Origin: Dillenia suffruticosa
Taxonomy: Eukaryota > Streptophyta > Magnoliopsida > Dilleniales > Dilleniaceae
Assembly (NCBI GenBank): GCA_033439265.1
Contig: JAVTVX010000002.1
Coordinates: forward strand, 7,104,174-7,168,173
Reading direction: 5' to 3'
DNA: 64,000 nucleotides
The translations under genes were made by a program, and so were the position numbers. The notes under the pieces are model-generated. The model did not search any database, was not told where the DNA came from, and saw nothing but the letters and a program-made list of their open reading frames with translations. Positions 8,201-64,000 of the stretch are shown here, one piece after another. Positions within the stretch are counted from its first letter, which is position 1. Every line of letters starts with the position of its first letter.

Positions 8201-11200
8201 AGTATAAAACTAATAGAAACTTGATTGCATTTCAAAGTGAGAATTCATAGAGATTTTTGAGCACTTGTTCATATTTTACAAGGGAAAAGGTCCTAACTAT
8301 TTATAGAATACAAAAGATACAAAAGAGAGAGAGAAAAGAGAGAGGAGAGGCAGGAGAGGGCACTGCCCTCTCCTGCCTGCCAGTTTCCAATGGCTAGTGG
8401 AACCTAGCTGTTGGAAACTCCAACAGCTAGTTTTCCAAAACTAGCTGTTGGAGAGCCCAGCTGGGCCCTTTCTCAAGGGCCAAGCTGGGCCTATTTTGGG
8501 GTCTCAAGGACCCCATGCTTGGCCCCATTTAGGGTCTGTTAAGGATCCCTAAATGGGCTTAAATTCTGTTTATTTTTAACATTTCCCCTCAAGTTGGGTG
8601 CGAATATTTCTATAGTGCCCAACTTGCCCATTATATCTTGAAGATGAGCCGATGCTCCTCCTTTGGTGAAGATGTTTGCCAATTGATCATTTCCTTTGAT
8701 ATGAGATGTGGCAATAAACTTTTCTTCTTCCTTTTGTCGAATAAAGTGACAATCAACCTCTATGTGTTTGGTGTGCTCATAAAAGACCGGATTAGAGGCA
8801 ATATGAATTGCGGATTGATTGTCACAATAAAGCTTGATTGGTGTTGAGACTCTAAACCCTAGCTCTTCTTCTAGGTCCTTTGACTATACTATCTCACAAG
8901 TGCCTGCTGTTGTGGCCTTATATTCGGCTTCTGCACTTGATCTAGACACAACCCTCTGTTTCTTGCTTTTCGAAGCAACAAGATTTCCTCCTACGAATAT
9001 GCAAAACCCAGTGGTGGATCTTCTATCCTTAGAATCACCTGCTGAGTCTGCATTACAGTATCCCTCAATTTCTGAGCTTTCATTTTTCTTCATCCAAATT
9101 CCTAATTCGGAGGAACCTTTGATGTAGTGAAGGATTCTTTCAACTGCTTTCCAATGACCCTTCTTAGGAGCATGCATGTATCGGCTTATTTGACTCACGG
9201 CATAGGCTATGTCCAGTCAAGTGATAGTAAGGTAGATCAACCTTTCTACAAGCCGCCGGTATCTCTCAACATTCTCATAGGGTTCCTCATCATCTTCTAA
9301 GGCTTTGGAGGTGGAGACGGGACAACAAGCCGATCTAGCTCCTAACTTTCTTGTTTGCTGCAATAAGTCAACAACATATTTTCTTTGGGATAGAATTAGC
9401 TCATTGTGGCAATAAGCTAGCTCAATTCCTAGAAAATACTTTAGTCTCCCTAAATCTTTAATTTCAAATCTAGATTTTAGGAAATTTCTAACAATATTAA
9501 TGAGATGTATGTCATTGCCTATTATTATAATGTCAGTTACGTAAATTAAGGCAATTATTACTTTATCATTGTTTCTTCTAATAAATAAGAATGAATCGTT
9601 ATTACATTTTGTGAAACCGTTACTAAAAAGAGCAAGACTTAGTTTTGCATGCCATGCTTTTGGAGATTGCTTGAACCCATAAATTGTTTTATATAGCCTG
9701 CATACATTTTCTTCTTGATGTCGGAGACCTTGAGGATGTTGCATATACACTTCTTCATCTAAATCTCCTTGAAGGAATACGTTTGCTACATCCATTTAGA
9801 ACATATTCCATCCATAACTGGATGCAAGCGAAAGTAATACTCGAACGGTGTTCATCTTAGCAACCGGTGTGAAAGTTTCCTTGTAATCAACCCAATATGT
9901 TTGGGTGTATCCTTTTGCTATTAGCCTTGCTTTGTATCTTTCGATGGAACCATCACTTTTATATTTGATTTTGAATATCCACTTGTATCCTATGGCCTTC
10001 TTTCCTTTTGGTAGAGGGGTGATCTTCTAAGTGCCATTCTTAGTTAAAGTTTCTAATTCCTTATTCATTGCTTCCTTCCATTTAGGATCCTTGATAGCTT
10101 CTTCGAACGTTCTTGGTTCTAATTCCTTATCTGTGCTACTCAAAAAAGCTTGATGGCTCAAAAAAATGTGAGAGGTAGTGTAGTAATCATAAATAGGGTA
10201 TCTCTGGTTGACCAATTCTAACGGTGGAAGTCTAAGTTTTGTTGATCTCCTAAGCTGAACGGGAGGGTCACTCGGCTCTTCTGAACTTGGTGTGGAATTC
10301 TCATCCTCACTTGTTCTTTGATCTCCCCCTGAATCAAATGGTGAGTCTTCATCCGTAGGGTTTGATCATTCTTCCTCATTTTGAGAACTTCCTTCGACTA
10401 CTGGAGAATTAATTGGATTTTCAACTTTTTGAGTAGCATTGAGAGTCACTAGAAAATCCCAAGTGGTTGTTTGAGAGCTTTTCTTTGGAATTTCGTTTAC
10501 TTCTTTTCTTGAAAAGTAAAACTCATTCTCCAAGAATATCACATCTTTCGATGTGTATGTGCGGTTAGTTGAACAATCATAGCATCTATAACCTTTTTCA
10601 AAGGATGCATACCCAAGAAATACACACTTTCTTTCTCTATGTTCTAATTTGTTTCTTAAATGCGTAGGAATATGAACATAGAATGTGCAACCAAATGTTC
10701 TAAGGTGAGAAAGCTTTGGTTTTCTTCCTAAAAGGAGTTCTAAGGGAGATTAGCCTTTTAAAATATCGGATGGCATGAGATTAATTACATGAACCGCAGT
10801 TTTAACCGCGTCACACTAAAATTTCTTAGGGGTGTTTGCATGAAACATCATAGCTCTAGCAATTTTTAGTATATGTCTATTCTTACGTTCGGCTATCTCA
10901 TTTTGTTGGGGGTGTGTAGACATATGATAGTTGATGGATAATATCATTGTCCTTAAGGTAATTTTCAAAATTGTGGTTTGTAAATTCATCACCATGGTCG
11001 GCTCTTAGGACTTTAATGTTGGCATTATAAAGTTTGGTCACATATTTCACGTAACTCTTGAGAGTTTCAAGAGCTTTGTCTTTGGTGTTTAAAAGATACA
11101 CCCATGTATATCTAGTCTTATGGTCAATGAATGTGATAAAATATTTATATCCTAAATGTAAAATAATGTGAGAAGTCCAAACATCCGAATGAACCAAATC

Positions 11201-14200
11201 AAATGCATTTTCATATATTGTTTCAGAAATAAGATACATAGTTCGGGTTTTTTTAGACAAAATATAAGCTTTACAATGTTTATTCTCATAGTTTAAGTTT
11301 GACAATAGACATTTTAAAGTTCGGTCACTAGGATGCCCTAGTCGCCAATGCCAAAGAGATGAATCTTTCTTGATATGTGCCGTAAGTGCATGCTGTTTTT
11401 GATAAAAAAAGTAAAGTCTTTTTTTTTCTAGAACCTTTGTCAATCAATCGATTCGATTTGATGTGCTGAAAAGAAATGGAATTTGGGTGAAAAACAACTC
11501 TACACCCTTGATCCTTAGTGATTTTGCTTATAGATAATAGATTTGAGGTAAGTTTTGTAACATATAAAGTATTTGTAGTTTTTCTAAAAATATCAATTTC
11601 CCTAACTTGATTTATCTTCAAATCTTGCCAATTAGCAACTCGTACTATCTTATGGTTAGGGAGATTTTTAAATCTCTTAACTTTTGAAATATCCCTAACT
11701 ATATGGTAGCTGGTGTCTGAATCTATGAGAATTTTCTGAATGCAAATTAGTGAGTGGTTTTTGAATTGTACCTTCAAGAGGAGAGATTTGTTGAAGTCTT
11801 TTTGTGATACTCTCAAGAGTAGTTTTGAGGGCAGCAAGCTCGGCCATTGTTGGATCATGAGAAGTTGCTTGTTGGGCAGTAGCTTGAGCTTCAAAACTTG
11901 GGCCTCCTTGTTGGTGTTTTGGTTTGAAATTTTTTGGTCTTAGGTGAGGATGTAAGAACCAACATTTATCCCTTGTATGTCATTTCTTTTTGCAATGAGA
12001 GCATACCTCCCTTTTGATGATCTTGACAGCCGTGAGGTCTTGAGAAGCCATGAATCCGTGAGCTTCCATCTTTAGCTTGGAGCTTTCGTCAATCCTCATG
12101 CTTACTTCGGCCCTTTGTACCATATTTTGCACTTCCCTGAATGTAGGAAATTCCTTCATGCGTAGAATTTCTTGTCGGAGATGAGTGAAGGAGTCATCCA
12201 ACCCCATTTGAAGTGCAAACGTTTTGTCCTTCTCTCTTCTCTTTTGGATGACTCTAAGATCAATTGAATCCGGTCGGAGAGTCATTAGCTCGTTTCATAA
12301 GTCGGTGAGCTCACCAAAGTATTGAGGAAAAGACTTTTCCTTCTTCTTGATGCTAGCAATTTGTTTCTTCAACTCAAAGATCTTCCCTAGATTAGATTCT
12401 TGGCCATATAGGGAGGACATTGTGTCCCGCACCAATTTAGCATTGGGAGCACAAGTCACCATGGCTTTATGAGTTTCATATAAGGAGTTTAGTAAGATGA
12501 TAAAAACATGATTATCTCTTTTTTTCCATTCCCTATATGCGAGATTGTTCTCATCAAGAATATGCTCCTCTAAATTTTGAAGATTGAGTGCTTTCTTCAT
12601 GATATTCACCCATTGATAGTAATTTCCTCCTTTTAATTGTATAAGAGGAAACGTTTTGAATTTGGATGAGGTTTATGGAAGGAAGAGGGTCACCCAACCT
12701 TAAAGAGGATGTGATCGTTTAATGCTCTGATACCAAGTTGAAACTATGAAAGAATTTGAATAAAAAGAAAGTATAAAACTAATAGAAACTTGATTGCATT
12801 TGAAAGTGAGAATTCATAGAGATTTTTGAGCACTTGTTCATATTTTACAGGGAAAAGGCCTTAGCTATTTATAGAACACAAAAGACACAAAAGGGAGAGA
12901 GAAAAGAGAGAGGAGAGGCAGGGAAGATTGATTGTTCAATTTTCATGAACATGTGCGCAGGGAAGAAGAAGACTAAGATAGAATGAAGATAAAAAAAGCC
13001 TATGTAGACATGCATACAATGCGTATAAAGTGATTAGAAGAAACTTTATTTATCAAATTTTCACATTTTACATGAATGAGGCATATTTCCAAAAATTATA
13101 GAACAATTTAATAGCACTTATAGAACTTTTAAAAATCATCTAAACAAATACGGAATCATACTAGAACTCAAACCTTATTAAAATGGAAAGTTTTCAAACT
13201 CTAAGACCCTAAAAGGACGATGATTTTCAGTTTGACCAGAATCAAATAGATACAAAATTTCTAAATCCGACCAGAAAACTCAACAAAATAGAATGATCGT
13301 CAATTGAATCAACACATTGTATAAACAAAAACCCAATTGCAATCTTCAGCTTTAACATTGAAAGTTGTCTGTTGGAGCAAAGCGAACTCTCTTCTACCCA
13401 ACACGAAGGAGTAAGTATTTTCGTAGGTATCATGCTTCACTCTTTGATTATTTAACCATCAACATCATCATATGATATGACGAATTTTGAGAGGGATGAC
13501 ATCATATTGCACTGTGTCAATCAAACCTCCAATGTAGTAGGTGAGCAAACACCTCACGTATTTTCAGATTTGTAATGTTAACCCAAGAAAACTTATGTGG
13601 ATTAGGTTGTTTTTTTTTTATTACTTTCAAATGCCATTTCTTCCTATGCAGAAGGTGAAGAGAAGGTTTCTAGCAGTGGTTTCTTTGTCTATTTTTTGCT
13701 TGTGTGGTGCGAACACAATACTAGTGCTTTGAGGGTAAAGAGAGTTCTATTGATTCTTTGTTGTTAATAGGGAGACTTTGGACGTAGATGTAACCCTTTG
13801 TCTTGCTTTGAATTATTAGTTTGTAAATTTTTGGATTGTCACCTTCCTATTGCTTCTAGTAAAGTTTTTATTCATAAAAAAATCTAGTTTCTTCGTGGCA
13901 TCTTCGAAAATCATATTAGTGCAACTCCCTCCATCAATTACTATTGTGCATAATTGGCCATTTCACTTGACCTGTGAAAATTGCCGGTTGCCTCCAATCA
14001 TCTTTCTCATCAACATTATGTGTTGAATGTAAGGGTTTAAGCACTAGTCATGGCTGCTTTTCATCACTATCAGTTTGTAGTTCTCAACCCTCTTGCTTGG
14101 TTCCACAAATTGCTTTTTCTATGTGCTTTTCACTTTCCTTCAGATTCACATTGGCTTGTGTAAGATATTGGTTATATTCGAGACCAAAACCTTTGCATGG

Positions 14201-46668: not shown

Positions 46669-48048
46669 TTAGCAAACAAAAGGTGCATCAGCATGGTGAT
46701 CACCACAATAAAGGCCGGGGCGCTGAGTGAAGCCCTGGCTCTCGAGCATTTTCCTCGCCTTCAGAACGAGTTCCCTGTTAGTAACAACTTCATCTGATTG
46801 TGCGAGTATAGTCTGGATTGCATTGCTCAGAGCACCATAGGATTCACTGGCATTACCCGAGGGAGTAGCATCTGCAGAAGTTTGATCCGTTTGGCAGCCA
46901 CTGATGAGAATCCCACCATCAGGAAGCTGGCGGTTGTTTGCTCCGGCATAGACTTCTTGCTTGCTGCCCACTTCAGTTTCCAGTGCAGGCTTAACATAGC
47001 TTTCATCCTCTTCCAGTTTGTGCTTTAGGAACTCCTGAGCAAGACCTCCAACCATCCCAAGGAAGCCGCCACTGCCACCTTCACCTTCACCATTGCCACT
47101 GTGTTCTTTAAGTTTATGCAAGATGACTTTCATGAACTTCTTCACCTTGGGGCTAGCATCTTCTCCAAAAATGTCGAAAAGGGTTGGCCTCAGCTTGCCC
47201 ACATCGATGTCATCTTTGCCAGTTTTCTGCTTGAGAATCTCTATCAGAGTTGAAAGAGGTAAAGACCTGCTTTTCATGTACCCACTATCTCCAAGTTCCC
47301 TTTCGCCATAATAATCTTCTTCTTCTTCCTGGTGGCGCCCGTGGTGGTGGTGGTGGTGACGAAGTCCAGAAGGCACATGAATTCCCCGCGACTCCAGCGC
47401 ACCTGACACCTTTTGGTGTAAGAACCCTTTCAAGTCGAAACCACCGGAATCAGAGTCTTGACCACCCTCCCTAGTACTGGATCCAATCTGCTCTTTGGCC
47501 TCATCAATCAGACCCCCACTGTGGCACGAATCTGCCACGATGGTAATACAGCAACCTTCAGGGATCTGGTCTACGAAGTCCCTGAAATCATCATCTATTT
47601 CCACAGAGTCTAAACATTAGATGATCCATAACAAAACCCTAATCATGTAATTCTGAGATGTTCATAATTGAAAAGAAAGAAAGAGAATCAATGAAAGCAA
47701 ACCAGTAATAAGATTCATGTCGCAGGGGACAATGCACTCATCATAGCCAGTATCGTCATCTTCGCCGGTCTCGGCAGGGAGGCGAGTGCCATGACCGCTG
47801 TAGTGGACAAAGAGGAAGTCCCCAGGCTCAGCAGATCGGACGAGATCGGTGATAGCTCGGCGGATGTTCTTGCCCGTGGGCTCTGTGTAGGAATCGTCGG
47901 TATCGATGAGAACGGTGATGTCCTCTTTGGAGAAGCCGTAACGCTCCACAAGACAGGCGTACATCCTCCGGACATCGTTTATGCATCCTTTCAGTTCAGC
48001 TTTCGTTCCTGGATAGTTGCAACCGATCAATACTGCTTTCTTTCCCAT
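46669..48048 (-). CDS. Type II metacaspase (MC4-like), two exons
   Basis: Cysteine protease of the caspase-like fold that cleaves after Arg/Lys; plant type II metacaspases act in Ca2+-triggered wound and cell-death responses. Exon 1 is complement(47703-48048) and exon 2 is complement(46669-47594), giving 423 residues, close to Arabidopsis MC4. The ATG at 48048 opens with [14 protein letters not shown] and has no prodomain, as expected for type II. The catalytic dyad is His86 (HYSGHG) and Cys139 (DSCHSGG). The long linker holds a natural run of six His and an acidic stretch. It ends near YMKSRSLP, where Lys223 matches the autocleavage Lys225 of MC4. The C-terminal p10-like part ends in APFVC. 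The exon 2 acceptor has an alternative 15 nt upstream (47609). The intact frame and catalytic residues indicate a functional gene. Confidence 0.95.
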
Positions 48049-48130: not shown

Positions 48131-50286
48131 GACGCTTGAGTTGGATCGGATAAATAATTTATTAAAATAATATAATAATATTTTTATAAAAAAAAATTCA
48201 CACGGACTTGCAAAATTTTATATTTTCATAAAAATTTATTAACTAAAAAAAATTATATATAAAATAAAAAAAATAAATTGAAATAACTAAAGAAAGGGCC
48301 AATATCAAATCCTTCACAACAATTAACAATAAAATGATGTCCGGTCAAAAAATAATAATAATAACACAAGTGTATGTGGGGCTATTTACACTCCAATTTA
48401 CCTATTCTTACTCTCTATTTTTTTTTTAAAATTTAAGTGATTTTTATAATTTTTTTACTTTTATTCAATTTCATATTTTAATGTAAAAGACAAATTTTCT
48501 TCTTTTATTATCATACTATTTATTAGCATAACCTATCTGCAATTCATAGTTATAGATATCTAATTAGTTTAGTGGTTGGATATTGATATATTTTAAATAA
48601 AAATTTGAATTTTAATCTCGTGTATGATAAAAATAGTTATTGAAAGAGATTTATCTCTTAAAAGTCTAATCTGGATCGAACCAGATTTAATCAAACTAAC
48701 GTTATAATTAGATACCGGTGATTTATTAAAAAAAACTAATAATACGTTAATCAGTTTTAAAAAGAAAATTTAAAATTATTTAATTTTAAGAGCAAAAAAT
48801 TACTATGCGTAGTTGTTTAAGAGAGTGATTAAATTTTCAAAGAGAAAATGAAACGAATACACTTAATTTTATGGAAAAAAATAATTTTTTTTAGTGAGAG
48901 AACTCAAAATAAAGAGAACTAATATTTCTAAAATTTAAAAATTCTGCATTTAAAAAGAGAAAATGAACTATCAAAATTAAAAAAAAAAATGTATATATAC
49001 AAACTGAAGCACTAATAGCCCCACCCCACGAGGACCCACTCCGATCAGAGAGAGAGAGTGTGCGTGTGTCTGGGAAATGGGAAAGAAAGCAGTACTCCGA
49101 TCAGAGAAAAAGAATTTTTTTTATAATTTTTTTAATATTATTATTATATTATTTAGTAAAAACTTGTGACTTTATATAAAATCTTTACGGTAATTTATAA
49201 ATATTATAAATAAAATAAAATTAAAAAATATCGGATTTATACGAGAGAAATAAAGGGCATCCACCCAAACACCTCACTTTTCAAAGCGAGAAGAAACTGG
49301 CAAGTTGTTAAATACTAAATAAATTATAGGAGCAATGTCTCTTAGCTCTCTTTTGGACATAGAAGTTGACTTTCACATTATTATATTAATTTTTTTTTTT
49401 TGGTTTTTATTATCAGTATTTAAATTTTATTTAATTAATCTGTTTCGAGTATTATGAAATCATTTTTAGGAGTTGGTTCTATCAAATTTTTTTTTTTTTT
49501 ATCATTTTTAAGGTTTGAATTCGAGATTTCTAGTTAAGGGGATAGAGTGTTTAAATATTCAATCTAAAAAAATTTGGTGTTCACTCTCACAATATGAGTG
49601 AAGATCGATTGAGATTGGATTGAATTCTTGCTTATACCAAGGCCGGTGTATACCAAGGTCAAGCTTTATGAGTAGGTGATGGATTACCTTCTCTCTAAAA
49701 AGCACATAAAGAAATTTTCCATTAAGAGACATTAGAATTCTTAATTATAAAAGAATGACAAGTCATGGTTGAAGTGAAGGTGGTTCTAATAGAATCCCAG
49801 AGTCGGATTGACTCGTGGTCAGTAATTCAAAGAACCATTGACCAGTTCATCGCTTAGGCATCGGAATCAAAATCATGTATAAATGTCTGGTTTAGGTTTT
49901 TTATTATTGACGCTTTTCAGTTTGAATCTAATGATTTTTTTTTTATAAATTTGTTGACTATAAAATAAGAGATATGAAAATTAAAAATATTAAAAAATTA
50001 TTATTTTTAGTTTGAAGGTAAAAATAAAAAATTTTTATTTTAATTAATTTTGAATTTAGTATAATTATTAAAATTCAATTATAAAAATGTATATGAGTTT
50101 TATATTACAAAAACTAATTTAAATAAATTATTTTATAAATTTAGTAAGGACAATAAATATTTAATCCTCTTGAGTAGTGATAAATTGAGTTTCAAATGCT
50201 CACCATTGAATCAATTCAAGAATTTTATCAACGAAAAATATATAATAGCTTTCTAATTAAATTCATTTCATCGTTAATGAGTCACA

Positions 50287-50328
<42 letters not shown>

Positions 50329-50495
50329 TACAAAAGAGATCGATGTTTATTTTTCTAATTTTTCTAATTTCAATTTTAAAACTAAAAACGAAATCAAAAT
50401 CATTTGAAATTAGAAACGGTGATTCCAGAAACCAACCAGAATCATGTGATCTCATGTAGGTCGTGGCATATAATATGTATATTATATTATGCTTA
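48131..50495. other. AT-rich region upstream of the metacaspase
   Basis: Mostly AT-rich DNA with no convincing open frame. It contains the inverted metacaspase 5' fragment at 49033-49095 and an (AT)n run at about 50297-50323. The metacaspase promoter must lie in the right-hand part near 48130-48700. Confidence 0.5.
49033..49095 (+). pseudogene. Inverted copy of the metacaspase 5' UTR and first codons
   Basis: On the + strand, ACCCACTCCGATCAGAGAGA (49035 on) parallels the metacaspase leader (CACCCACTCCGATCT then GA repeats, - strand, about 48090-48105). It is followed after a short gap by GAAATGGGAAAGAAAGCAGT at 49074-49093, identical to the metacaspase start region (- strand 48031-48051) through codon MGKKAV. 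Homology then stops. The copy points away from the intact gene, about 1 kb upstream. It may be the remnant of a head-to-head paralogue, since type II metacaspases often occur in clusters, or a small inverted duplication. Confidence 0.75.
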
Positions 50496-50605
50496 CACTA
50501 TAACGGAAATAGTTTATGGAGATGGACGAAAATCGTGAGAAAAAGATGATAAATCCATCAATAAAGTCTTCTCCAACGGATAAAGGTTCAGTCGGCTAAA
50601 AAGGG

Positions 50606-50627
50606 GTCGGGATAGATCTATCCCGAC
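50606..50627. repeat. Perfect 22 bp palindrome near the CACTA end
   Basis: The arm GTCGGGATAGA is followed at once by its exact reverse complement. It lies 110 bp inside the presumed left terminus. It could form a cruciform or bind a dimeric protein; the function is unknown. Confidence 0.9.
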
Positions 50628-50639
50628 ACTTGTGATGAC

Positions 50640-51480
50640 CGTCGGAGCATGTTTAACATTCGGACGGTTAGAAAAGTGTCGGTAAAAATCAACGTTATAT
50701 TATCGATTGTAAAATGAGTAGTAAGAGTTATTACATTTATCACCACTTTTGTAAAGAGATTAGTAAAATTTATTATCTTTATTATCACTTGTAAAGAGTT
50801 AGTAAAAATTATAATTTTTATCATCACCTTATAGAAAGTTAGTAAAAGTTACTATTTTTTATCAGTTTAAGGGTCACGTTTTTACCTTTATCATTACTCA
50901 ATGACTCAATATAACCGTTAGAATTGATATAACTATTTATTGTCACCAATGAAATAATAGTATGTTAGGAAATGTTATAATTTTTATTATCGATAAATAC
51001 AAATGTTAGTAAATATTACTATAATACCGTCGGATTTTGGGATATAAGAAATGTGAATTATTTATTGTCACATTTTACTGTTGGGTTTATAAATATTACT
51101 ATCTTTATTGTCGCTTACAGAAGTATTGGGTTAGTAAATATTATTATCTTTATTATCATTTATTGAGTTAGTAAATATTACTAATTTTATTGTCATTGTC
51201 ACTTATAGAGTTATTAGTCAGTAAATATTACTACTTTATTATCGTTTATAGAATTATAAGTTAGTAAATATTACTACCTTTGATATCGGTTACAGAAATA
51301 ATTTGTAAATAAATGTTACTACATTTATTGTCGTTGGATAGTAAATATTACTACTTTCTACAGAATTATTGTTGGTGAGTAAATTTTACTAACTGAGCAT
51401 ATGTTATTTGTTACTTAATATTGGTAACCAAATGTTACTATTCTTTTGGGTCGGTTATCACAAGGTTAGTAAATGTTAGG
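50640..51480. repeat. Subterminal array of GTTAGTAAATATTACTA-type units (left)
   Basis: Roughly fifteen degenerate units of about 45-60 bp carry AGTAAATATTACTA followed by TTTATTATCG/TTATTGTCG and an AGA/TAGA spacer. The core is close to a palindrome. Adjacent units differ by many substitutions and small indels. Confidence 0.75.
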
Positions 51481-52019
51481 ATATATCAATACAAATAATA
51501 TAAAGAGTTAGGAAATATTATAAATACCGTATCTTAGGAAATGAAATACCTTTTATATCATGAAATATACATGATAATTTTACAAGAGAAAGAAAAAGAT
51601 TGTAACTTTCGGTCGGTACATATCTTCATATCTTCTAAAATGAAATGTTGATGGTAAAAATGTTAACTTAGAGCACCCAAAAAATTCCAACATTCGTAGT
51701 TTCGATGTGTGCTCCCAACATTTTGTATTGGAGGAAACTAACAATATAAATACAAATAATATGGATTATTGTTAAATCCTAAACATCTTGAGAGTGAGTT
51801 GTCTACATTTTCTTTTGATTACCGGTGTAAATTAAAATTAAAAAATAGATAACATAATAATTACAAAGAAATATATTATTAAAAAGAAATGATCTATTTT
51901 AAAACATAAATATAAACAAAACCAAATCTGAAATATCATTTTCGAATAATTAAGTTTCTTCAGAGTTAACTTGTTTTTCGGATGGTTATAATTATTTGTG
52001 TTTAGCTACAATGGATATT

Positions 52020-52260
52020 TTTCGTTTATTTCGTCCCATATTTTTTATTGAAAATTTTTGGTTGAAAATATTTGAGAGATGTGAGAGAGAAAAGTTTTTA
52101 AAGAAAATGAGAAGTTTTGATATTTGTGAAGGGAGGAACGATTTGTAGTATATATATTTGGTTTAGTACCAAATAAATTTTGGTTTGTAGTATATATAAT
52201 TTGTTTAGCGCCAAATAAAATTTTCAAAATCCGTCATTTTCCCCGTTTATCACATTTTAG
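52020..52260 (-). promoter_or_regulatory. Promoter-like segment with duplicated TATATA box
   Basis: On the - strand there is TTTATTTGGCGC, then two 47 bp tandem copies each containing TATATATACTACAAA-like sequence. A pyrimidine-rich leader (CTTTTCTCTCTCACATCTCTC) follows, then ATG at 52040 with a 15-codon frame ending in TAA. This resembles a core promoter with a leader and a broken gene start. No known protein follows. Confidence 0.3.
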
Positions 52261-52370
52261 TTTTTGAATTTTTTACTGTTTAACTCTATTTTTATAGTTT
52301 GAGTAATTAATAAAAAATTTTGAATTTGACGTATTACTATATAACTCCGTAAAGCAGTAGTTAGTAGTAA

Positions 52371-52830
52371 AAATTACTATCATGTTACTAGATCGGGCGC
52401 ATGCCCTGTGCAGCACAACCGTCGGTAGAGCCGATTACTATATAATTCCATGAAGTAGTAAGTATTACTATCATGTTATTAGATCGGGGGCATGCTTGCG
52501 TGGCACAACCACCGGCAGAGCCGCCCAGGCAAAGCGCGCTTGAAAATGCCTACGCATGGCACAACCGGCAGCTGATTCACCCAGGCAAGCGTGCACAAAT
52601 GCCTGCGCGGCACAACCGGAGGCTGAGCCGCCCAGGCAAGAGCGTGCGCAAATGCCTACGTTCGGCACAACCGACGGCTGAGCCGCCCAGGAAAGTGCAC
52701 GCGCAAATGCCTGCGCGGCACAACCGGTGGCTGAACTGCCCAAGCAAAAGCGCGCGCAAATGACTACGCGTGGTACAACTGGCGGCTAAGACACCTAGGC
52801 AAGCGCCCGCAAATACTCTCGTAACATAAC
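52371..52830. repeat. GC-rich tandem array, about 54 bp unit (island 1)
   Basis: About seven units contain GGCACAACCG followed by GCTGAGCCGCCCAGGCAAG and GCGCGCAAATGCCT. Starts are near 52413, 52499, 52554, 52606, 52663, 52714 and 52769. The first two units are longer (about 90 bp) and include ATTACTATCATGTTA-TAGATCGGG. Open frames on both strands are by-products of the GC content. Confidence 0.88.
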
Positions 52831-53599
52831 TTGCGGCTCAATCAGTACCTTATTTTAAAATAATAATTTTATTGTTTTAAATAATAAAATATTTATATTA
52901 TTAATATAATCATATGAAATCTTTAAAGTATATTACTAAATTTGTTATATGAAATTATGTTAGTAAATTTGTTATATACAATCATTAAATATATTAAATT
53001 TATAATTTATATTATATAGTGTCATAATACAATTTATTATCTTTTTTATGAATATATAATTTTAAATAAAATCACATATTTTTTATGTTATTATTACTAC
53101 ATTAGTTACATAATTTTATATGATTATATTATTTAAAATAATAAAATTTTATACTTAATTTATAATTTAAATTTCGTTATAATTAAGGAATGTGAGTTCG
53201 GATCATATGTTTTGATTGATTGCATATGATGAGTATGATGAGTATGAGTATGACTTATTTAAATTAATAATATTAATTAGACATGTTAATGTATAATTTA
53301 TATTTTTGATTTTATAATTAAGAAATATGATAATTATATTTAATATTATTTATTTAGAAATGTAAGGAATTGAAATCAAAATTTGATAACAAACTTTACA
53401 ATAAGAGTCCAAAATATTATCAAAATTATTTAAATTAGTAATAATTTAATTGAAAATAATAATAATAAAAAACTAAAATAATTAAATGAAATATGATAAA
53501 ATTAATAATTAAATGAAATATGAAGAAAATTAAAAAAGCTACCATAAAAATATTATGAGTATATATACTAGTACCATTAAATTTATTATATAAAATGTA

Positions 53600-53850
53600 A
53601 CCCTACCTTAATAATAATATTTAAATTTAATAATTATTTGATATTAGTAATAAAACATGATTATTGAAATTAATAAGTAGTATTATTTAGTAATATTAAT
53701 ATTGATAATTAATTAAGTTGTATGGAATAATAATATTAAATTATAGTAATATAATGTTAATCAAATAAATTTGATAATCATAATTATAATAAATTTATAA
53801 ATTTATATCATGAAACAATATAATTTATAGTTATATTATATTGGCAAATA
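53600..53850. repeat. AT-rich block, copy 1 of 3
   Basis: About 250 bp, including ATTATTTGATATTAGTAATA, ATTAAGTTGTAT, AATATAATGTTAATCAAATA and ATGAAACAATATAA. The same order recurs at 54905-55165 and 57530-57735 with over 90% similarity by eye. Confidence 0.88.
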
Positions 53851-54179
53851 ACATATTTATATTTTGGGCTAATAGTTGTATTATACCGCCAAACAACGTA
53901 TTCAAATATTTTTAAATATTGAGAGTTTATGTTTTACGCGATACCAACACTAAATGTTGAAAATCTTTTCGCGTGTCTTTCTTTTCGCGCGCTTTTTTCC
54001 CTCACTTACAAATTTATTATGAGATTTGAATTTTTAATGAGTTTTTAAAAATTTTTACTTTTTAATGTATGGTTATAGTTTGGAATGGAATAGTTATAGT
54101 TGACATTACATATTATTAGGTCTGTAATTTTTAATATTAGATATTTTCATTAGTATTATTTTTTAGTTTATACAAATTT

Positions 54180-54840
54180 CATACACTTTTAAAAAATACT
54201 TGTTACCAAAATAAAAATACTTATTACTATTTGTTACCATTTCTACAAGAGGAAGTAATTGTCCACTTGTTACCGATTGTTATCATTGTTATGATATTAT
54301 ATTATACAAATTTTATACAATTATTGTATTACCACTTGTTATATTTGACCAAAATCACTTGTTTACATTTATTATCATTGTTATCACAATAAAAATTATT
54401 GTTATCAGAATTAAAGTAATTATTACCATTTGTATGAAGAGAAAGTAGTAATTCTTACCACTTGTTACCAATTGTTACCATTGTTATGATATTTTATTAT
54501 AAAAATTTTATATAATTATTGTCTTACCACTTGTTATATTAGATTAAGATCACTTGTTACCACTTATTATCTCTTATTATTATTGTTACCATAATAAAAA
54601 TCATTGTTATCAGAATTAAAATAATTGTTACGATATTCTATTATACAAATTTTATATAATTATTGTATTACCACTTGTTATATTGAATCAAAATCACTTG
54701 TTACCACTTATTATCATTGTTATTATAATAAAAATCATTATTATAAGAATTAAAGTAATTGTTACCATTTGTTACCATTTATACGAATAGGAAGTATAAT
54801 TCTTATCATTTGTTACCATACGACCCATTTGTTAGATATG
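54180..54840. repeat. TTGTTACCA array with about 180 bp higher-order unit
   Basis: Three to four imperfect units contain CACTTGTTACCA, TTACCATTTGTAYGAAGAG, ATATTATATTATACAAATTT, ATATAATTATTGTATTACCA and ATCACTTG. It sits between AT-rich block copies 1 and 2. A similar array follows copy 3 (57740-58330). Confidence 0.8.
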
Positions 54841-54904
54841 CTAATGTATATTTTATATTTTAGAATTTATAATTAAGGAATATGATAATTAGATAGTCAT
54901 TATT

Positions 54905-55165
54905 TGATAATTAAAATGTAACTCTACCTCAATAACATTATTTAAATTTAATAATTATTTGATATTAGTAATAGAATATGATTATTGAAATTAGGAAATA
55001 GTATTATTTAGTAATATTAATATTGATGATTAATTAAGTTGTATAGCATAATAATATTAAATTATAGTAATATAATGTTAATCAAATAAAATTGATAATC
55101 ATAATTATAATAAATTTATAAATTCATATTATGAAACAATATAATTTATAGTTATATTATATTGA
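54905..55165. repeat. AT-rich block, copy 2 of 3
   Basis: Matches 53600-53850 throughout, with scattered substitutions (for example ATTGATGATTAATTAAGTTG instead of ATTGATAATTAATTAAGTTG). The GC-rich island 2 follows after about 100 bp. Confidence 0.88.
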
Positions 55166-55274
55166 CCAAACAATATATTTTATATATCTTATTATCATAT
55201 ATAAAAATTATTTATTTATATAGTTTTTGCCTATCATTTGTTAAAAAATATACCATATTATACATAGTTTTTGC

Positions 55275-55460
55275 CCACCCGAGTCAGCACGTGCCTGGAT
55301 GGCCCCGCCCACCTAAGCCAGCACTAGCCTGGAAGCCACGTGCTTGGACGGGCCCCACCCACCCGAGCCAGCACCAGCCTGCAAGTTACCCACTCGCCCA
55401 AGCTAGCACCCTCGCCTGCAAGCGCGCCCGCTCCAGCGTCACCCCTCCTCAGCCCTCCTC
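55275..55460. repeat. GC-rich island 2
   Basis: Repeats of about 45-50 bp with CCACCCGAGCCAGCACCAGC, CTGGA and GGGCCCCGCCCACC words. It is sharply bounded by AT-rich DNA. A short unique stretch follows with TTACTGAAAAATGCCGCTTT and a CACACACGCA run. Confidence 0.8.
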
Positions 55461-55560
55461 ACTTAATTACTGAAAAATGCCGCTTTGCCTCCTGCCTCTA
55501 CCGTGATTCGAACTCCTGCACACCTGCACACACACGCATAAGTATAAACCTGTAAACCAC

Positions 55561-56280
55561 CGAGTCAAATGATATTATGTGATATAAATTTTTTTTTTAC
55601 TTATTATCTTTCCTTCACATTTTTCTAATAATAATAAAATAATATATAAAAACAATTTTAAATAATAAATATAATAATTTTTTTTTATTTAAACCACCAA
55701 CCTAAAATAATATTAATTAAAAATATTAAATATGATAATTTTTAATAAAATAAAAAAATAAAATACTAATTTAAAATAAAATAATAAATTAATTAAAAAA
55801 TATATTAATATTATATTTTGTTTTCTTCTTTTTTCTTTCTTTTATTATTTTATTAATCTTTTTCATTTTTATTTTATTTTTTTAATCCATAGTTTAAAAA
55901 TGGATTACGGCATCTCAATAATATAAAATTATAATTATCAATAAATTATAATATATTAATAATTTAAAAAATTTATATGTTTAATCACAAAATATTTTTA
56001 TACGTTTTAATATATAAGAAATTTCAATATAATTATTATATATAAGAAATTTCATTAATGAGAATGGAAAAGAAAAAAAAACGCAAAAATAAAGATGAGA
56101 GTAAGAGGAAGGAAAAAAAAGTGAAAATAGAAAACAAATGAGGAGGAAAAAAGAAAAAAAAAATATATTATCACATAACATTAAGTGGTGGTATTGTGGC
56201 GATATGTTTTCCGTTCAAATCCGAGTTCCAAGATTCGAATCCCTTCAATAGTATTTATAGCAATTTTTTTAGTATTAAAA
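55561..56280. other. AT-rich filler, no feature
   Basis: Over 80% A+T by eye, mostly homopolymer and AAT/TAA runs. No open frame or repeat of note. Confidence 0.6.
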
Positions 56281-56285
56281 CAATG

Positions 56286-56420
56286 AAGGGTGGGCGCCCT
56301 CGCGTGCATGTGCCCTCGCGTGCATGCGCAGGCGCCCAGGCAGGCGCGGGTGCCTGCTCGGGCGCAGGCGCCCGGCGCCCATGCGTGCATGTGCCGGCGC
56401 CCGCGCAGGCTCGCGCTGTC
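56286..56420. repeat. GC-rich island 3
   Basis: GGCGCC, GGCGCAGGCGCC and CGTGCATGTGCC words are repeated in direct and inverted order (for example CGCCCTCGCGTGCATGTGCC and its neighbours). The island is about 80% G+C inside very AT-rich DNA. Several short palindromes make it likely to fold. Confidence 0.8.
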
Positions 56421-56749
56421 AGTCGAATTAATATTTAATTAAAAAATTTGTATTATTGAATAAAATAATATAAATAAAATAAAAGTTACCTATACAATAA
56501 TAAAAAATATTAAATCAAACAAAAAAAGAAAAAAAATAATAAATTAATTAAAAAAAATATATAATTTAAATAAAATAAAATATATGGTTTTTTTTAAGAA
56601 TTAAATAATATTATTCTTCTAAAAAAATGAAATATAATATAATAAATTAAAATGTAAATTGAAATATTATAAAATAATAATATGATTTGTTAATATAAAT
56701 TAATAAAATAAAATAAAAATAAGATAAAATTCTAATTAAACAAAAGATT

Positions 56750-57365
56750 AAATTCAGCGACGGATTTAGAATCTGTCGCTGAAACAACGATGCATTTGGA
56801 ATCCGTCGCTAAATTACCAACGGATAAATTTCGTCGTTGTTAAATTAATTTTTTAATTTAAATATTATATTAATATTATATTTTATTTAATTATATATAA
56901 AAAATTTAGCGACGGATTGTGATTTTTGTCGCTAAATTAAGCGATGGAAAACAAATCTATCGCTAAATTAATTTTTAACTTAAATGTAACATATTAATAA
57001 AATAAAAAGAAAAAAATAAAATTCTATTTAAAAAATATTAAATTTTGTGACGAATTTTAAATCCATGGCAAAATTTAGCCATGAAATATTATTCGTCGCT
57101 AAATAGCGATAAAATTTGCAACGAAAAATTTTTTGTAGCCAATTAGCGACGAATTTAGTCACGAAAATTTTTTCGTCTCTAATTAGCGACGAATTTAGTT
57201 ACGAATGATGTGTCCGTCGCTAATTTAGTCACGACTTCCTTTTCGTCGTAAATTTTGTGACAAATTAGCGATGAAAAAGTTTTTGTCTCTAAATTCGTCG
57301 CAAAATAGCGATGAATTTTTTCTATCACGAAAATCCATGACTAAAGCCGTATTTTTTTTGTAATA
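56750..57365. repeat. GCGACGGA/TCCGTCGC subterminal-type repeats
   Basis: The motif AGCGACGGATTT and its complement AAATCCGTCGCTA occur many times in both orientations. The block ends in GCCGTATTTTTTTTGTAATA, like the TTTTTTGTAGTG right ends of dicot CACTA elements. This looks like the end of a second, nested CACTA family. Its left end was not found. Confidence 0.6.
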
Positions 57366-57529
57366 TAATCACATGACAATTCAATATAAAGTTATTAATA
57401 TTATTAATTTAAATAGTATAAAATTATTAATATTATCAATTTATATGAAATTAGTAATTTATATAATATGGTATTATAGTTTTGAAAATTCATTGACCAA
57501 TTATCAAATAATATAGTATTGTAATTTGA

Positions 57530-57735
57530 TATTAGTAATTATTTGATATTAGTAATGAACATGATTATTGAAATTAGTAAGTAGTATTATTTAGTAATAT
57601 TAATATTGATAATTAACTAAGTTGTATAGGATAATAATATTAAATTATAGTAATATAATGTTAATAAAATAAAATTGATAATTATAATTATAATAAATTT
57701 ATAAATTTATATTATGAAACAATATAACTTATTGT
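57530..57735. repeat. AT-rich block, copy 3 of 3
   Basis: Matches copies 1 and 2 from TTTGATATTAGTAA to ATGAAACAATATAA. The start of the block is shorter than in the other two copies. Confidence 0.85.
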
Positions 57736-58330
57736 CATTTATTAGTTGATATACATTTATTACTATGTTACCATGGTTACCATTTTTTTACCATTTTTGT
57801 TAAAAACACTTGTTATCATTTCTTATTACTTGTTACCACTTCTTACTACTTGTGACCATGTTATATTATACAAATTTTACATAATTATTGCTTTACCAGT
57901 TGTAACGTCCATTTATTTTTTGTTAGTATAATAATAAAAGTACATTTGTTATAGATCATTTGTTACTACTAAACCATTTATTACCATGTTATATTATACA
58001 AATTTTATATAATTATTGAATTATCACTTGTTACGTTAGACCAATCCATGTTACCATTTATTCCTTGTTAGCTATCACTTGTAGATAAAAAATAAAAGTT
58101 ACCATATTATTTATTATTAAACTATAATACAAGTACACGTGGAGTTTATATTTGTTATTTGTTATAAATCAATTGTTATCACATTTTATCATTGTTACTA
58201 TGTTACGATATAAATAGAGAATAAAAGTAATTATTATCATTTGTTACAATTTGTAAGAAGAGAAAATAGTTGTTATTACTATTTCTTACCACTTATTACC
58301 ATACCACATTACAATACATAATACGAAGAA
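57736..58330. repeat. TTGTTACCA array (second)
   Basis: Units with ACTTGTTACCA, TTATATTATACAAATTTTAC, ATAATTATTG and ATTTGTTACAATTTGTAAGA match the array at 54180-54840. Block plus array is therefore a duplicated higher-order unit. Confidence 0.75.
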
Positions 58331-58529
58331 GAAGAATGAAAATAGGGTGATTAAAAATATAAAAAATATTTCTCTTATCCATTGTAAATGAAATATGAGA
58401 AGAGTGAAGTAAATGAAATAAAGAGAGAATAGCAGAAGGAGAAACATTAATTAATAGAGAATATTTTCTTGATGATGGCAAAATCTAAATATTCAATAAA
58501 ACCAATACGTAATAGTATTAATGCCAAAC

Positions 58530-58800
58530 TTTTGACGTCTCTTTATTTGGCGCCAAGAAATGACGTCAAATAAGAAAGAAGAGGAGGAGGAAGTGGGAGG
58601 AAGTGGGAGGAAGCACTATAAAAAATGCGCCATTTACCAACGGCCCCTTTATCATGACAGGGACAACTGCTTATCTCATACAAATCGACAAAGGACGACT
58701 CGTCTCCATACAAATCGACGAAAGTTTTTCTCTCTTCGACCCATCTCACATATTCATCCTCTCTCCCTCTCTCTTCTCTTCTCCACCTTTCTTTTGATCT
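58530..58800 (+). promoter_or_regulatory. Promoter-like segment with palindromic E2F-type site
   Basis: TTTGGCGCCAAG at 58546-58557 is a palindromic match to the E2F consensus (TTTSGCGC). It is flanked almost symmetrically by TGACGT (58533-58538) and TGACGTCA (58561-58568), which are bZIP/TGA-type sites. TATAAAAAA is at 58617-58625. Downstream is an imperfect 33 bp duplication around CATACAAATCGAC (58678, 58710) and a CT-rich leader (58750-58800). The order resembles a plant promoter and 5' UTR rather than repeat DNA. Activity is unproven. Confidence 0.5.
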
Positions 58801-59557
58801 TTTCTCACATGCGAAACATTGATCTGATGGTTTCTTTATCGATTTAGATTTCACCATGTTTTCTCCTCTACTATGATTGATCTCAACGGAACAATTTTTT
58901 CTTTGTTTTTTGATTGTCCGTTCATCTTTTTTCATTGGCCTCTACAGACACACTCTTTCTCCCTGCTTGCAAGTCAACGTTTAGGGCCTTTCAAAGGTCA
59001 GATCTGCTTCCCCCTTTTCTTTTTCTTACATTCACATTTGTTATAAATAAAGCACCATTTTCGTTTATATTTTAGTTGCATCATTCATTTCTTTTATGAT
59101 TAATTAATTATTGATCATTTCTTTTATGGCTAACTACATTTTCTTAGTTTTTGTTTGCGGGGGGAGGATTAAGATGGAAACATAGAATTTTATACGTAGG
59201 GTTAAGTCTCCAATATTTAAAGAAAAAACATGATTTCTATTTTAGTCTCTATGTAGTAATTGATGCATGATTTAAAGTGAAAATCATCATAGTAATGTTC
59301 TCTAAAAAGGTTTTGGGTTGTCCCATTTATGATTTTTAATTAACAGTACTTTCATCCTATAATGAGCTGTCAGCTGTAATATATGTTTTCATTTTTTATT
59401 ATTTTGTTTGGTACTATTTATGGAGGAATTAGAGAATGATATTTCATTTAAGATGAGAAGCATCGCAATATAACTCCTTATGCACTATTCTTTATACCAA
59501 ATCTTGAGTTAATTGCCAATTTCAAGCATTGTAACAACTCTTATTGTGCTATAAATT

Positions 59558-59778
59558 GTTCCAGGTATTTATGTTGCTGGTGTGGAGTAAAGGTGGGCAG
59601 CCAAGTGAAGGAATTAAAGGTTGGCAATGAATTCTACAGTGATATTAGTGAGAAAGAATTGAAGTATCCCAAGCAATTTAGCTCCTTAGCCGAGTACGCG
59701 GTTGTTGAGGAGAAATTGTTCGCACTTAAACCAAAGAACTTGGACTTTGCTAAAGATGCGGGGCTTCCTCTAGCAATG
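59558..59778 (+). pseudogene. Captured alkenal/quinone reductase exon fragment
   Basis: GTTCCAGGT...TATGTTGCTGGTGTGG followed by VGSQVKELKVGNEFYSDISE, KELKYPKQFSSLAEYAVVEE and KLFALKPKNLDFAKDAGLPL matches the NADPH-dependent alkenal/2-methylene-furan-3-one reductase family (medium-chain reductase, often plastid). Relative to the family (GYDVAGVVVKVG) a base or more is missing near 59583-59590. This frameshifts the start, and homology stops after GLPLA. Only about 70 codons of a roughly 330-380-residue protein remain, with no NADPH-binding motif. It lies inside the putative CACTA element next to GC-rich island 4. Confidence 0.85.
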
Positions 59779-59827
59779 TGGCCACTGACATAATTCAATT
59801 TTCAAAACCATACATGGATAATTTCTG

Positions 59828-60090
59828 CACGGTACAGCCGCGCCGCTGCTCACGGTACAGTCATCCAGGCGTACGTACCATGCATTATCGCATGCATGGC
59901 ACAGCCACGCTAGATTTCGCGGTACAACCATCCAGGCGTACCCACGCATGCATTATTGCATGAGCGGCACAGCTGCGTTTGCCTCCGCGGTACAGCCGTC
60001 CAGGTGTATCCACGCATGCATTATTGCATGAGCGGCACCATTGCTCTTACCTCCACGGTACAGCCGTCCAGGCATGAACACACATGATAG
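59828..60090. repeat. GC-rich tandem array, about 75-80 bp unit (island 4)
   Basis: About four units with CGGTACAGCCGTCCAGGCGT, then ACCCACGCATGCATTATTGC and ATGAGCGGCACAGC. It shares GGYACARCCG and CCAGGC words with island 1 (52371-52830). Confidence 0.88.
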
Positions 60091-63000
60091 TAACTTTACT
60101 ATGTAAGCACAACAAAATATAGTAATATTTACTATAATATAATAACAATTAATATTATAATAACGAATATGAAAACTAGTAAATTTATTTCTCTCTCATG
60201 ATAAAAGAATAGTTACATTTACTATTAAACTAACCACAATAGTCGAATTAACAGATAATAATATATAGTAACATTTACTACGTAAGCACAATAAAATACA
60301 GAAACATGTACTATAAAAAGCTAACATTTACTATTATAATAACGGGATATGAAAGATAATAAATTTATTTGTCTCTCATGATAAAAGAATAGTAACATTT
60401 ACTATTAACCTAACCACAATAGTCATATGAACAGATAATAAAATATAGTAATATTTACTATAAAAACTACAACGAACCGCCGGCATGAGGCATGAATCGT
60501 GAGTTTTAACATTAATTTATTTTAATTCATATTTAATTTAACAATATACCATTTTAACATTTCAATTTTAACATTTAAATGAGAAATTCATTGTAACATT
60601 TACTATTAATGTAACCACAATAGTCAAATTAACAGATAATAACATATAGTAATATTTATTATATAATCACAACAAAATATAGTAACTTTTACTATAAAAT
60701 AGTAACATTTACTATTAAAATAGGTACAATAATGTAATTAACAAATAATAACATATGATAATATTTATTATATAATCACAATAAAATATAGTAATATTTA
60801 CTATATTTTATACAATAAACCGTCGGCATGAGGCATGAACCGTCAGTTTTAACATTTAATTATTTTAATTCACATTTAATTTAACAATATATTATTTTAA
60901 TATTTCAATTTTAACATTTCAACGAGAATTTCATAGTAACATTTAATATTAAACTAACCACAATAGTCAAATTAATAGATAATAACATATAGTAACATTT
61001 ATAATATAATCATAACAAAATATAGTAACATTTACTATTATAATAACGGATGTGAAAGGTAATAAATTTATTTCTCTTATGATAAAAGGATAGTAACATT
61101 TACTATTAATCTAACTACAATAGTTCAATTAACAGATAATAATATATAGTAACATTTACTACACAACTACAATAAAATATAGTAACATTTATTATATTTT
61201 ATACAATGCACCGCCGGCATGAGGCATGAATTGTCGGTTTTAATATTAATTTATTTTAATTTACATTTAATTTAACAATATACCATTTTAACATTTCAAT
61301 TTTAATATTTCAACGAGAACTCTATAATAACATTTACTATTAATCTAACCACAATAGTGAAATTAACAAATAATAGTATATAGTAACATTTACTATATTA
61401 TCACAATAAAATATAGTAAAATTTACTATAAAATAGTAACAATTACTATTATAATAACGGATGTAAAAAATAGTAAATTTATTTGTTTCTCCTGATAAAA
61501 GAATAGTAATATTTACTATTAAGCTAATCATAATAATACAATTAATAGATAATAATATATAATAATATTTACTATGTAATCATAATAAAATATAGTAATA
61601 TTTACTATAAAAACTACAATGAACCGCCGGCATGAGGCATGAATCGTCAGACTGTCGGTTTTAACATTAATTTATTTTAATTCACATTTAATTTAATAAT
61701 ATACCATTTTAATATTTCAACGAGAATTTCATAGTAACATTTACTATTAAGCAAATCACAATAGTCAAATTAACAGATAATAATATATAGTAACATTTAT
61801 TACGTAAGCATAATAAAATATAATAATATTTACTTTAAAATAGTAATATTTACTATTATAATAAAGAATGATAAATACAGTAAATTTATTTATCTTTTAT
61901 AATAAAATGATAGTAACATTTACTATTAAATTATCCACAATAGTCAAATTAATTGATAATAATATATAATAATATTTATTGTGTAATCATAATAAAATAT
62001 AGTAACATTTACTATAAAAACTATAATGAACCATCGGCATGAGACATGACCGCTGGTTTTAACATTAATTTATTTTAACTCATATTTAATTTGACAATAT
62101 ACCATTTTAATATTTCAATTTTAACATTTCAACGAAAACTCCATAATAATATTTACTATTAAACTAATCACAATAATCCAATTAACAGATAGTAATATAT
62201 AGTAACATTTACTATGTAAGCGCAATAAAATATAATAACATTTACTACAAAATAGTAACATTTACTATTATAATAGCAAATAATAACGGATGTGTAAGGT
62301 AGTAAATTATTTGTCTCTTATGATAAAAGGATAGTAATATTTATTATTAATTTAATCACAATAGTCCAATCTCAATAAAATATAATAATATTTACTATAA
62401 AAGCTACAATGAACTGCTGGCATGAGGCATGAACCGTCGGTTTTAATATTAATTTATTTTAATTCATATTTAATTTAACAATATACCATTTTAACATTTC
62501 AATTTTAATATTTTAACGAAAATTCTATAATAACATTTACTATTAAACTAATTACAATAATCAAATTAATAGATAATAACATATAGTAACATTTACTATA
62601 TAAGCACAATAAAATATAATAACATTTACTAAAAAAGTTACAATGAATCGACGACATGAGAAATGAACCGTCGGTTTTAACATTAATTTATTTTAATTCA
62701 CATTTAATTTAACAATATATAATTTTAATATTTCAATTTTATCATTTTAACGATAACTCCATAGTAATATTTATTATTAAATTAACCATAATAGTCAAAT
62801 TAACAGATAATAACATATAATAATATTTAGTATATAATCACAATAAAGTATAGTAACATTTATTATAAAATATAGTAACATTTACTATAAAATAGTAACA
62901 TTTACTATTATAATAATGGATATGAAATATAATAAATTTATTTATCTCTCATGATAAAATGATAGTAATATTTATTATGAATCTAACAACAATAGTCGAA

Positions 63001-63830
63001 TTAACAGATAATAATATATATAACATTTACTATGTAATTACAATAAAATATAGTAATATTTGCCATAAAATAATAACATTTACTATAAACTAGTAATATT
63101 TACTATTATAATAACGGATATAGAAGGTAGCAAATTTATTTGTCTCTCATGATAAAATGATAGTAATATTTACTATTAAATTAACCACAATAGTTGAATT
63201 AACAGATAATAAAATATAGTAACATTTACTATGTAATAACAATAAAATATAGTAACATTTACTATAAAATAGTAATATTTACTATTATAATAACGGATGT
63301 GAAAATTAGTAAATTTATTTGTTTCTCATGATAAAAGAATAGTAACATTTACTATTAAAGTAATCACAATAGTCGAATTAACAGATAGTATAATATAGTA
63401 ACATTTACTATTATAATAACGGATGTAAAATATAGTAAATTTATTTGTCTCCTATAATAAAAGAATAGTAACATTTTCTATTAACCTAATCACAATAGTC
63501 AAATTGACAGATAATAACATATAGTAACTGTTACTATATAACCACAATAAAATATAGTAATATTTATAATAAAATAGTAATATTTACTATTATAATAATA
63601 CACGTGAAACGTAGTAAAATTATTTGTTTCTCATCATAAAAGGATACTAACATTTACTATTAAACTAACCATAATAATTAAATTAACAGATAATAAGATA
63701 TGATAACATTTATTATATAACCACAATAACATTTACTATAAAATAATAACATTTATTATAATATAGTAACATTTACGGCAAAATAGTAACACTTACCACT
63801 ATTTATCATTTCCTTTTACACTTATCATTT
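60090..63830. repeat. Large array of ATAGTAACATTTACTAT motifs with a higher-order unit of about 350-410 bp (right)
   Basis: Dozens of copies of ATAGTAACATTTACTAT and variants, in units that also hold CCGCCGGCATGAGGCATGAA, a TTTTAACATTAATTTATTTT block and TTAACAGATAATAACATATA. The CATGAGGCATGAA box starts near 60483, 60827, 61214, 61627, 62036, 62417 and 62652, giving spacings of about 340-410 bp and then 235 bp. After 62.9 kb the box is lost and shorter units of about 120-170 bp dominate. The motif is the inverted counterpart of the left array at 50640-51480. Confidence 0.85.
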
Positions 63831-64000
63831 TTTACTATATTCACTCATCATCACAACAGCTGAAACATCTTTCAAAATCGTGAGTATAAAATCTATATTT
63901 TGTCATCACAACTTATAGTCGTAAGGATATAGGTATGTAAATTCAGGCATTTTTATATACGTAAGTATAGAGTATTGTTTATACAAACGGTTTGCTATCT
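63831..64000. other. Window end, unassigned
   Basis: The TTACTAT motif density drops and mixed sequence follows (CATCACAACAGCTGAAACATC). No terminal CACTA complement is seen up to 64000. Confidence 0.5.

Follow-up and report, generated by a model that had tools for sequence, protein, structure and literature searches.

A long CACTA-type element with opposed subterminal motif arrays and a recurrent gene-derived segment in Dillenia suffruticosa

The window analysed here is a 64-kb stretch of Dillenia suffruticosa DNA (C2:7104174-7168173), and positions below follow its numbering unless a contig is named. Its right-hand part is occupied by an element spanning 50496 to 64167 (13,672 bp), the right end of which lies 167 bases beyond the window edge. 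Within it, a short array of a subterminal motif near the left end and a much longer array near the right end enclose GC-rich islands and a truncated, gene-derived segment (Table 1). The element carries the features by which CACTA (En/Spm) transposons are recognised, namely CACTA terminal inverted repeats, a 3-bp duplication and a repeated subterminal motif at both ends. We are highly confident that it represents one complete CACTA (En/Spm) transposon without a recognisable transposase gene, likely mobilised by the enzymes of its relatives. An earlier note, drawn up from the letters of the window, had proposed a single CACTA-like element of more than 13.5 kb, which the measured length bears out.

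At the left border, CACTATAACGG stands directly after TTA at position 50496, where the note had placed a CACTA start. For the right border, the note had suggested extending the assembly to find a mirrored terminus followed by TTA; the extension holds TTTTTAGTTTGTAGTG and then TTA, the last element base being 64167, and the element is thus bordered by TTA and CACTATAACGG on the left and by TTTGTAGTG and TTA on the right. The predicted TAGTG end and its TTA were found, but the sequence predicted beyond TAGTG was wrong: the mirror of CACTATAACGG, allowing up to two mismatches, has no match in the stretch to the right of the window. TAGTG occurs 57 times in the 73.6 kb examined, and only at the element's right end does TTA follow. 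Read inward, the right terminus is CACTACAAACTAAA, which agrees with the left terminus CACTATAACGGAAA at 10 of 14 positions; the majority termini of the family, CACTACAACGGAAA on the left and CACTACAAACTAAA on the right (read inward), agree at 11 of 14, and their longer forms are CACTACAACGGAAATGG and, again read inward, CACTACAAACTAAAAGC. The fold of the left terminal 300 bases was matched by only 2 of 200 shuffles (19 of 200 for a control from the AT-rich flank), and pieces of the arrays folded no better than shuffles (40 and 75 of 200 equally good).

The same termini recur elsewhere in the 596-Mb, 37-contig assembly. With the first 220 bp of the element as query, 826 candidates were obtained, and among the 40 scored (studied copy included) 38 matches begin at base 1 and two at base 2; with the last 220 bp there were 328, of which 40 were scored, and 36 of these matches finish at base 220. 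Exact CACTA was present at 24 of 30 fetched left ends and 27 of 30 fetched right ends, and the trinucleotides preceding the 30 left ends are of 19 kinds. A 31-base pattern of the left terminus matched 228 places with up to three mismatches, some of them internal copies, and the reversed-pattern control matched none. Two of the internal copies, both reading TACAACAACGG (C9:17132330-17132360 and C4:19401746-19401776), lie on the same strand as another left end and about 3.4 and 4.0 kb inside it. The 11-mer CACTATAACGG alone mostly marks unrelated sites, with a motif array at one of eight fetched places, that of the studied window. Exact scans of viral contigs yielded two matches to a 17-base pattern, both without arrays, and none to a 21-base pattern; a 33-base pattern had no match in bacterial genome contigs.

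Left and right ends were paired among the 40 left and 40 right scored matches by strand and order, at distances of up to 60 kb. This produced eight pairs, with lengths of 13.7, 15.6, 16.0, 17.0, 20.9, 29.1, 37.0, and 37.2 kb (the studied copy being the shortest), and one further neighbour in the wrong geometry. The 3-bp flanks are equal in all eight pairs (TTA, TAT, TAG, CAT, TAC, ATA, TTA, and GTG), whereas cross pairing the flanks would give a match in only 2 of 56 combinations. The genome search for copies sharing both ends, also suggested by the note, thus supports its CACTA-like reading together with the TAGTG end and TTA. One of the paired elements, a 15,591-bp copy on contig C4 (hereafter the C4 copy), covers 74% of the studied copy, both ends included, according to BLAST run without the low-complexity filter (183 matches, four of them inverted).

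The subterminal motif is TAGTAA-NNN-TTACTA; because its arms are palindromic, direction rests on the central triplet only. Matches to the 15-mer TAGTAAATRTTACTA (left sense) and to its complement (right sense) were counted, and are given here as left:right sense. Exact matches numbered 4:0 in the left array and 0:29 in the right array, rising to 7:0 and 1:52 when one mismatch was allowed and to 11:2 and 4:63 when two were; at up to three mismatches the contrast in orientation is weaker (16:8 and 33:80). Two more left motif copies lie beyond the left array, at 52365 and 52456 (2:0 with up to one mismatch). The flank (1-50495) contains no match with up to two mismatches and nine with up to three, and chance means were at most 0.37 up to two mismatches (30 first-order Markov re-drawings per array). 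The central triplet is ATA in 7 of 16 left sites, and CAT or TAT in 58 of 64 right sites (up to two arm mismatches).

This directionality extends to the other copies. At 29 other left ends, the first 1.5 kb holds 313 R.R triplets, one Y.Y and 24 of other types; at 29 other right ends, the last 1.7 kb holds 434 Y.Y, four R.R and 43 others. Most of these left and right ends carry the motif; it is absent inward at 2 of 30 right loci. Counted per half of the element, the motif occurs 14:3 and 1:62 times in the studied copy and 16:3 and 2:60 times in the C4 copy. The central triplet of the arrays therefore points one way relative to its own end, here and at 29 other left and 29 other right ends.

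The measured array lengths (about 0.8 and 3.7 kb) agree with those of the note (0.85 and 3.7 kb). With the motif masked, the left and right arrays are no more alike than shuffles, and the left end and the right array share no excess of k-mers over shuffles. The right array is organised in units of about 180 bp (eight aligned, mean identity 76%) and 234 bp (four aligned, 84%), a structure suggesting that it probably grew by tandem duplication of these composite units. Among its motif copies, C>T or G>A account for 53 of 97 changes, and this divergence is compatible with old, methylated or AT-biased DNA and not with recent expansion.

Table 1. Features of the element in window numbering (right copy of the target-site duplication in the extension).
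Feature	Position	Strand	Basis or content
Element, part within the window	50496..64000		Both termini, TTA/TTA flanks, termini common to other genomic copies
Target-site duplication TTA	left copy 50493..50495; right copy 64168-64170		Sequence at the borders
Left terminal repeat CACTATAACGGAAA	50496..50509	+	Comparison with the right end read inward
Left terminal region ahead of the array	50510..50714	+	Perfect 22-bp palindrome at 50606-50627
Left subterminal array	50715..51520	+	14 motif copies (up to two arm mismatches), centre mostly R.R
GC-rich tandem array inside the left end	52396..52835		53-bp units
Stretch missing from the C4 copy (15,591 bp)	55131..57531		Two GC-rich islands and the GCGACG/CGTCGC block
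Gene-derived segment common to the family	58540..59800	+	Contains the truncated coding piece (59593-59790)
GC-rich tandem array inside the right end	59826..60085		68-bp units
Right subterminal array	60081..63800	-	64 motif copies (up to two arm mismatches, 60081-64000)
Right terminal region, part within the window	63801..64000	-	Terminus TTTGTAGTG ending at 64167

In keeping with the note, no transposase was recognised by a Pfam scan of 29 of the 30 listed open reading frames of at least 60 aa, a scan that shorter exons would escape; the omitted frame (50282-50497) lies almost wholly in the flank. We also compared 150 scored Transposase_21 domains, out of 2257 genome candidates, with 115 listed left ends at distances of up to 40 kb, and none of the 150 falls within the studied copy. 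On the opposite strand, five domains lie inside left ends where 0.86 would be expected (at most four in 300 shifts), three of them 8.6-9.4 kb inside, in the copies at C13:9889044, C18:17957762 and C26:10486464; this opposite-strand excess was noticed post hoc. Same-strand domains numbered one inside left ends (0.79 expected), and three lie on the outer side (1.69 expected). Because of the five opposite-strand domains inside other left ends, autonomous relatives are likely to exist elsewhere in the genome.

Several observations weigh against the reading as one complete CACTA transposon moved by its relatives. The right pentamer is changed in two of the eight pairs (TAGAG and TAGTA, second and third in the list of flanks), and in these the right border was assigned 1-2 bases outside the matched sequence; the left pentamer is changed in two other pairs. 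The element's own left and right ends are not alignable past the short terminal repeat (136 of 200 shuffles equally good). The inverted arrangement of the arrays proposed in the earlier note holds for TAGTAAATRTTACTA, but two other motifs are direct: ACCG[CT]CGG (nine copies in the element, none in the flank) and ATAACGG (eight and two) each occur on the same strand at both ends, and the ends are therefore not simple mirror images. Finally, the excess of Transposase_21 domains derives from only the 150 scored of 2257 candidates, and in the only paired copy with such a domain (C4, 37 kb) it lies on the same strand.

In En/Spm, as summarised in the cited passage, the subterminal repeats are the binding sites of TnpA and the terminal repeats those of TnpD (PMC5105172). 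By analogy, the family would encode a putative TnpA-like protein that attaches to the arrays and brings the ends together, with cleavage at the termini left to a TnpD-like transposase; the studied copy would move in trans by means of the enzymes of related elements. An alternative that retains the CACTA assignment, and that we consider unlikely, is that the overlong right array is mainly a platform for silencing or anti-silencing instead of end pairing. In length the array exceeds the right border of the soybean element Tgmt*, as given in the excerpted description, about fivefold, its motif changes are mainly those that methylated DNA or plain AT bias would give, and its CpG ratio is 1.36 compared with a flank median of 0.34; however, the CpG signal is confounded, given that two AT-rich flank windows are also high (1.17 and 0.82), and the opposed direction of the motif at the two ends suits end pairing. 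Slightly more doubtful still is a proposal in which the palindromic motif arrays would form a counted directional platform, with a dimer on the arms, the triplet setting the handedness of the paired ends, and the right array acting as a VANC-like shield from silencing; if true, this would constitute a separate, CACTA-borne anti-silencing design.

Two readings that dispense with a CACTA element are very improbable. A Mutator-type, VANDAL-like element, with non-coding motif arrays as targets of an anti-silencing protein, would accord with VANDAL21, described in the cited excerpt as having dense one-orientation short-motif arrays in tandem repeats (PMC5735166), but the element has CACTA termini and 3-bp duplications (all eight pairs) and not duplications of about 9 bp, the length given for Mutator in the passage cited (PMC4423477); the VANC21 motif YAGTATTAY has five sites in the window, four of them in the element interior and none in the arrays. 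A chance neighbourhood of unrelated AT-rich repeats would fit the plus-strand density of CACTA in the flank (0.73 per kb, a density at which a CACTA no more than about 220 bp from an array is not uncommon), the unlike spacers of the two arrays and the lack of a motif array at the seven other fetched CACTATAACGG places, but is refuted by borders common to dozens of places and by the equal flanks of all eight pairs.

The interior of this CACTA element contains the GC-rich islands and the gene fragment that the earlier note had reported. The two GC-rich tandem arrays align better inverted (3 of 500 shuffles equally good) than direct (44 of 500), although their consensus units show no clear preference (direct 30 and inverted 47 of 1000 shuffles equally good). 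The stretch missing from the C4 copy may be a nested insertion. Its GCGACG/CGTCGC block (56757-57345) ends in GCCGTATTTTTTTTGTAATA, an end seen once in the window, and may be what is left of a decayed, nested non-autonomous element. Three repeats of one block, up to 274 bp long and about 92% identical, lie at 53591-53862, 54912-55185, and 57524-57742; next to them, and on a single strand throughout, stand arrays of the motif CACTTGTTACC. The CpG observed/expected ratio exceeds 1 in most 1-kb windows of the element, relative to the flank median already given.

The coding piece of the gene-derived segment matches PDB 4ida, 'Ripening-induced protein' (E 8.2e-14), which we take to be the strawberry enone oxidoreductase. 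It is truncated at the identical place in the studied copy and the C4 copy, and an apparent splice acceptor precedes it in both; in the C4 copy the piece is interrupted by a stop, and the studied copy is frame-shifted relative to the C4 copy. A search with the 1.26-kb segment returned 336 candidates, of which 40 were scored (studied copy included), and at the other 39 places the main matches are 83-90% identical. At 25 of the 40 places the segment sits inward of a family end from the list and shares its orientation (shifted controls: average 0.25, maximum 2), and at none is the orientation opposite; it was therefore present in the common ancestor of those copies. This ancestor carried part of an oxidoreductase-like gene, likely captured from the host, and the piece spread as the ancestor was amplified. 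The captured host DNA of the earlier note is accordingly upheld as regards a gene-derived segment; however, with 39 other scored places this is not a capture private to the studied copy, and we infer its host origin. The matches of highest identity (89-90%; C19:18074088-18075137 and C17:15565586-15566706) are shorter, with an extra piece alongside, and represent a possible clue to the donor or a rearranged copy.

In the flank, a metacaspase gene occupies 46669-48048 on the minus strand, its closest protein among the 120 matches listed being from Liquidambar (76% identity). A piece resembling the start and leader of this gene recurs at about 49034-49094, some 1 kb upstream and in the opposite orientation. 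Further to the left, a Ty1-copia retrotransposon remnant (8539-12672, minus strand) encodes reverse transcriptase, integrase core, gag_pre-integrs and SH3-like domains in separate frames.

The element belongs to a new CACTA family. Its unusual features are arrays that consist of the subterminal motif itself and are both long and almost uniform in direction, and a gene-derived segment common to many copies; among the open-access papers searched, none on its termini and motif was found. This giant CACTA family has 228 left-terminus matches in one eudicot genome. The one-directional arrays make the effect of motif number and direction on end pairing testable. The common segment illustrates clearly how one old, probable capture was multiplied together with its carrier, and it should be possible to date this event and to trace the donor.

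Among known systems, the VANDAL elements of Arabidopsis share dense, one-directional, non-coding arrays of short motifs that change by tandem duplication, but differ, in the excerpts cited, in their degenerate terminal repeats, their motif and their duplications (PMC5735166; PMC10398659). Jozin-type CACTA elements of Chenopodium, one of which measures 16,523 bp, likewise combine gene fragments with a long tandem array close to the 3' end; in the cited part of that account, this array is presented as satellite DNA that was captured, and a Transposase_21 domain is present (PMC8978399), whereas the array studied here is built from the subterminal motif. The Tpn1 family of Japanese morning glory (339 copies of 7,081 bp on average, the longest 40,619 bp) resembles ours in consisting mostly of non-autonomous CACTA elements that have tandem repeats in their subterminal regions, AT-rich duplications of 3 bp and sequence captured from the host. 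It is set apart, by the published description as excerpted, through its 28-bp terminal repeats and subterminal units of 122 and 104 bp, and its interiors are replaced by various host sequences, in contrast to the one recurring gene-derived segment of the studied family (PMC5105172). Tgmt* of soybean, a 20.5-kb CACTA element, has imperfect 13-bp CACTA terminal repeats with three mismatches, a 3-bp duplication, and asymmetric subterminal motifs, four in 159 bp on the left and 24 in 732 bp on the right (PMC2613891). According to the excerpted account, Tgmt* has a different motif, which occurs in both direct and inverted orientation at one and the same end, and it encodes a transposase (PMC2613891); the studied arrays, of about 0.8 and 3.7 kb, are near one-directional at each end and accompanied by no recognised transposase. 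As far as that account goes, the asymmetry of the studied element resembles that of Tgmt*, on a larger scale.

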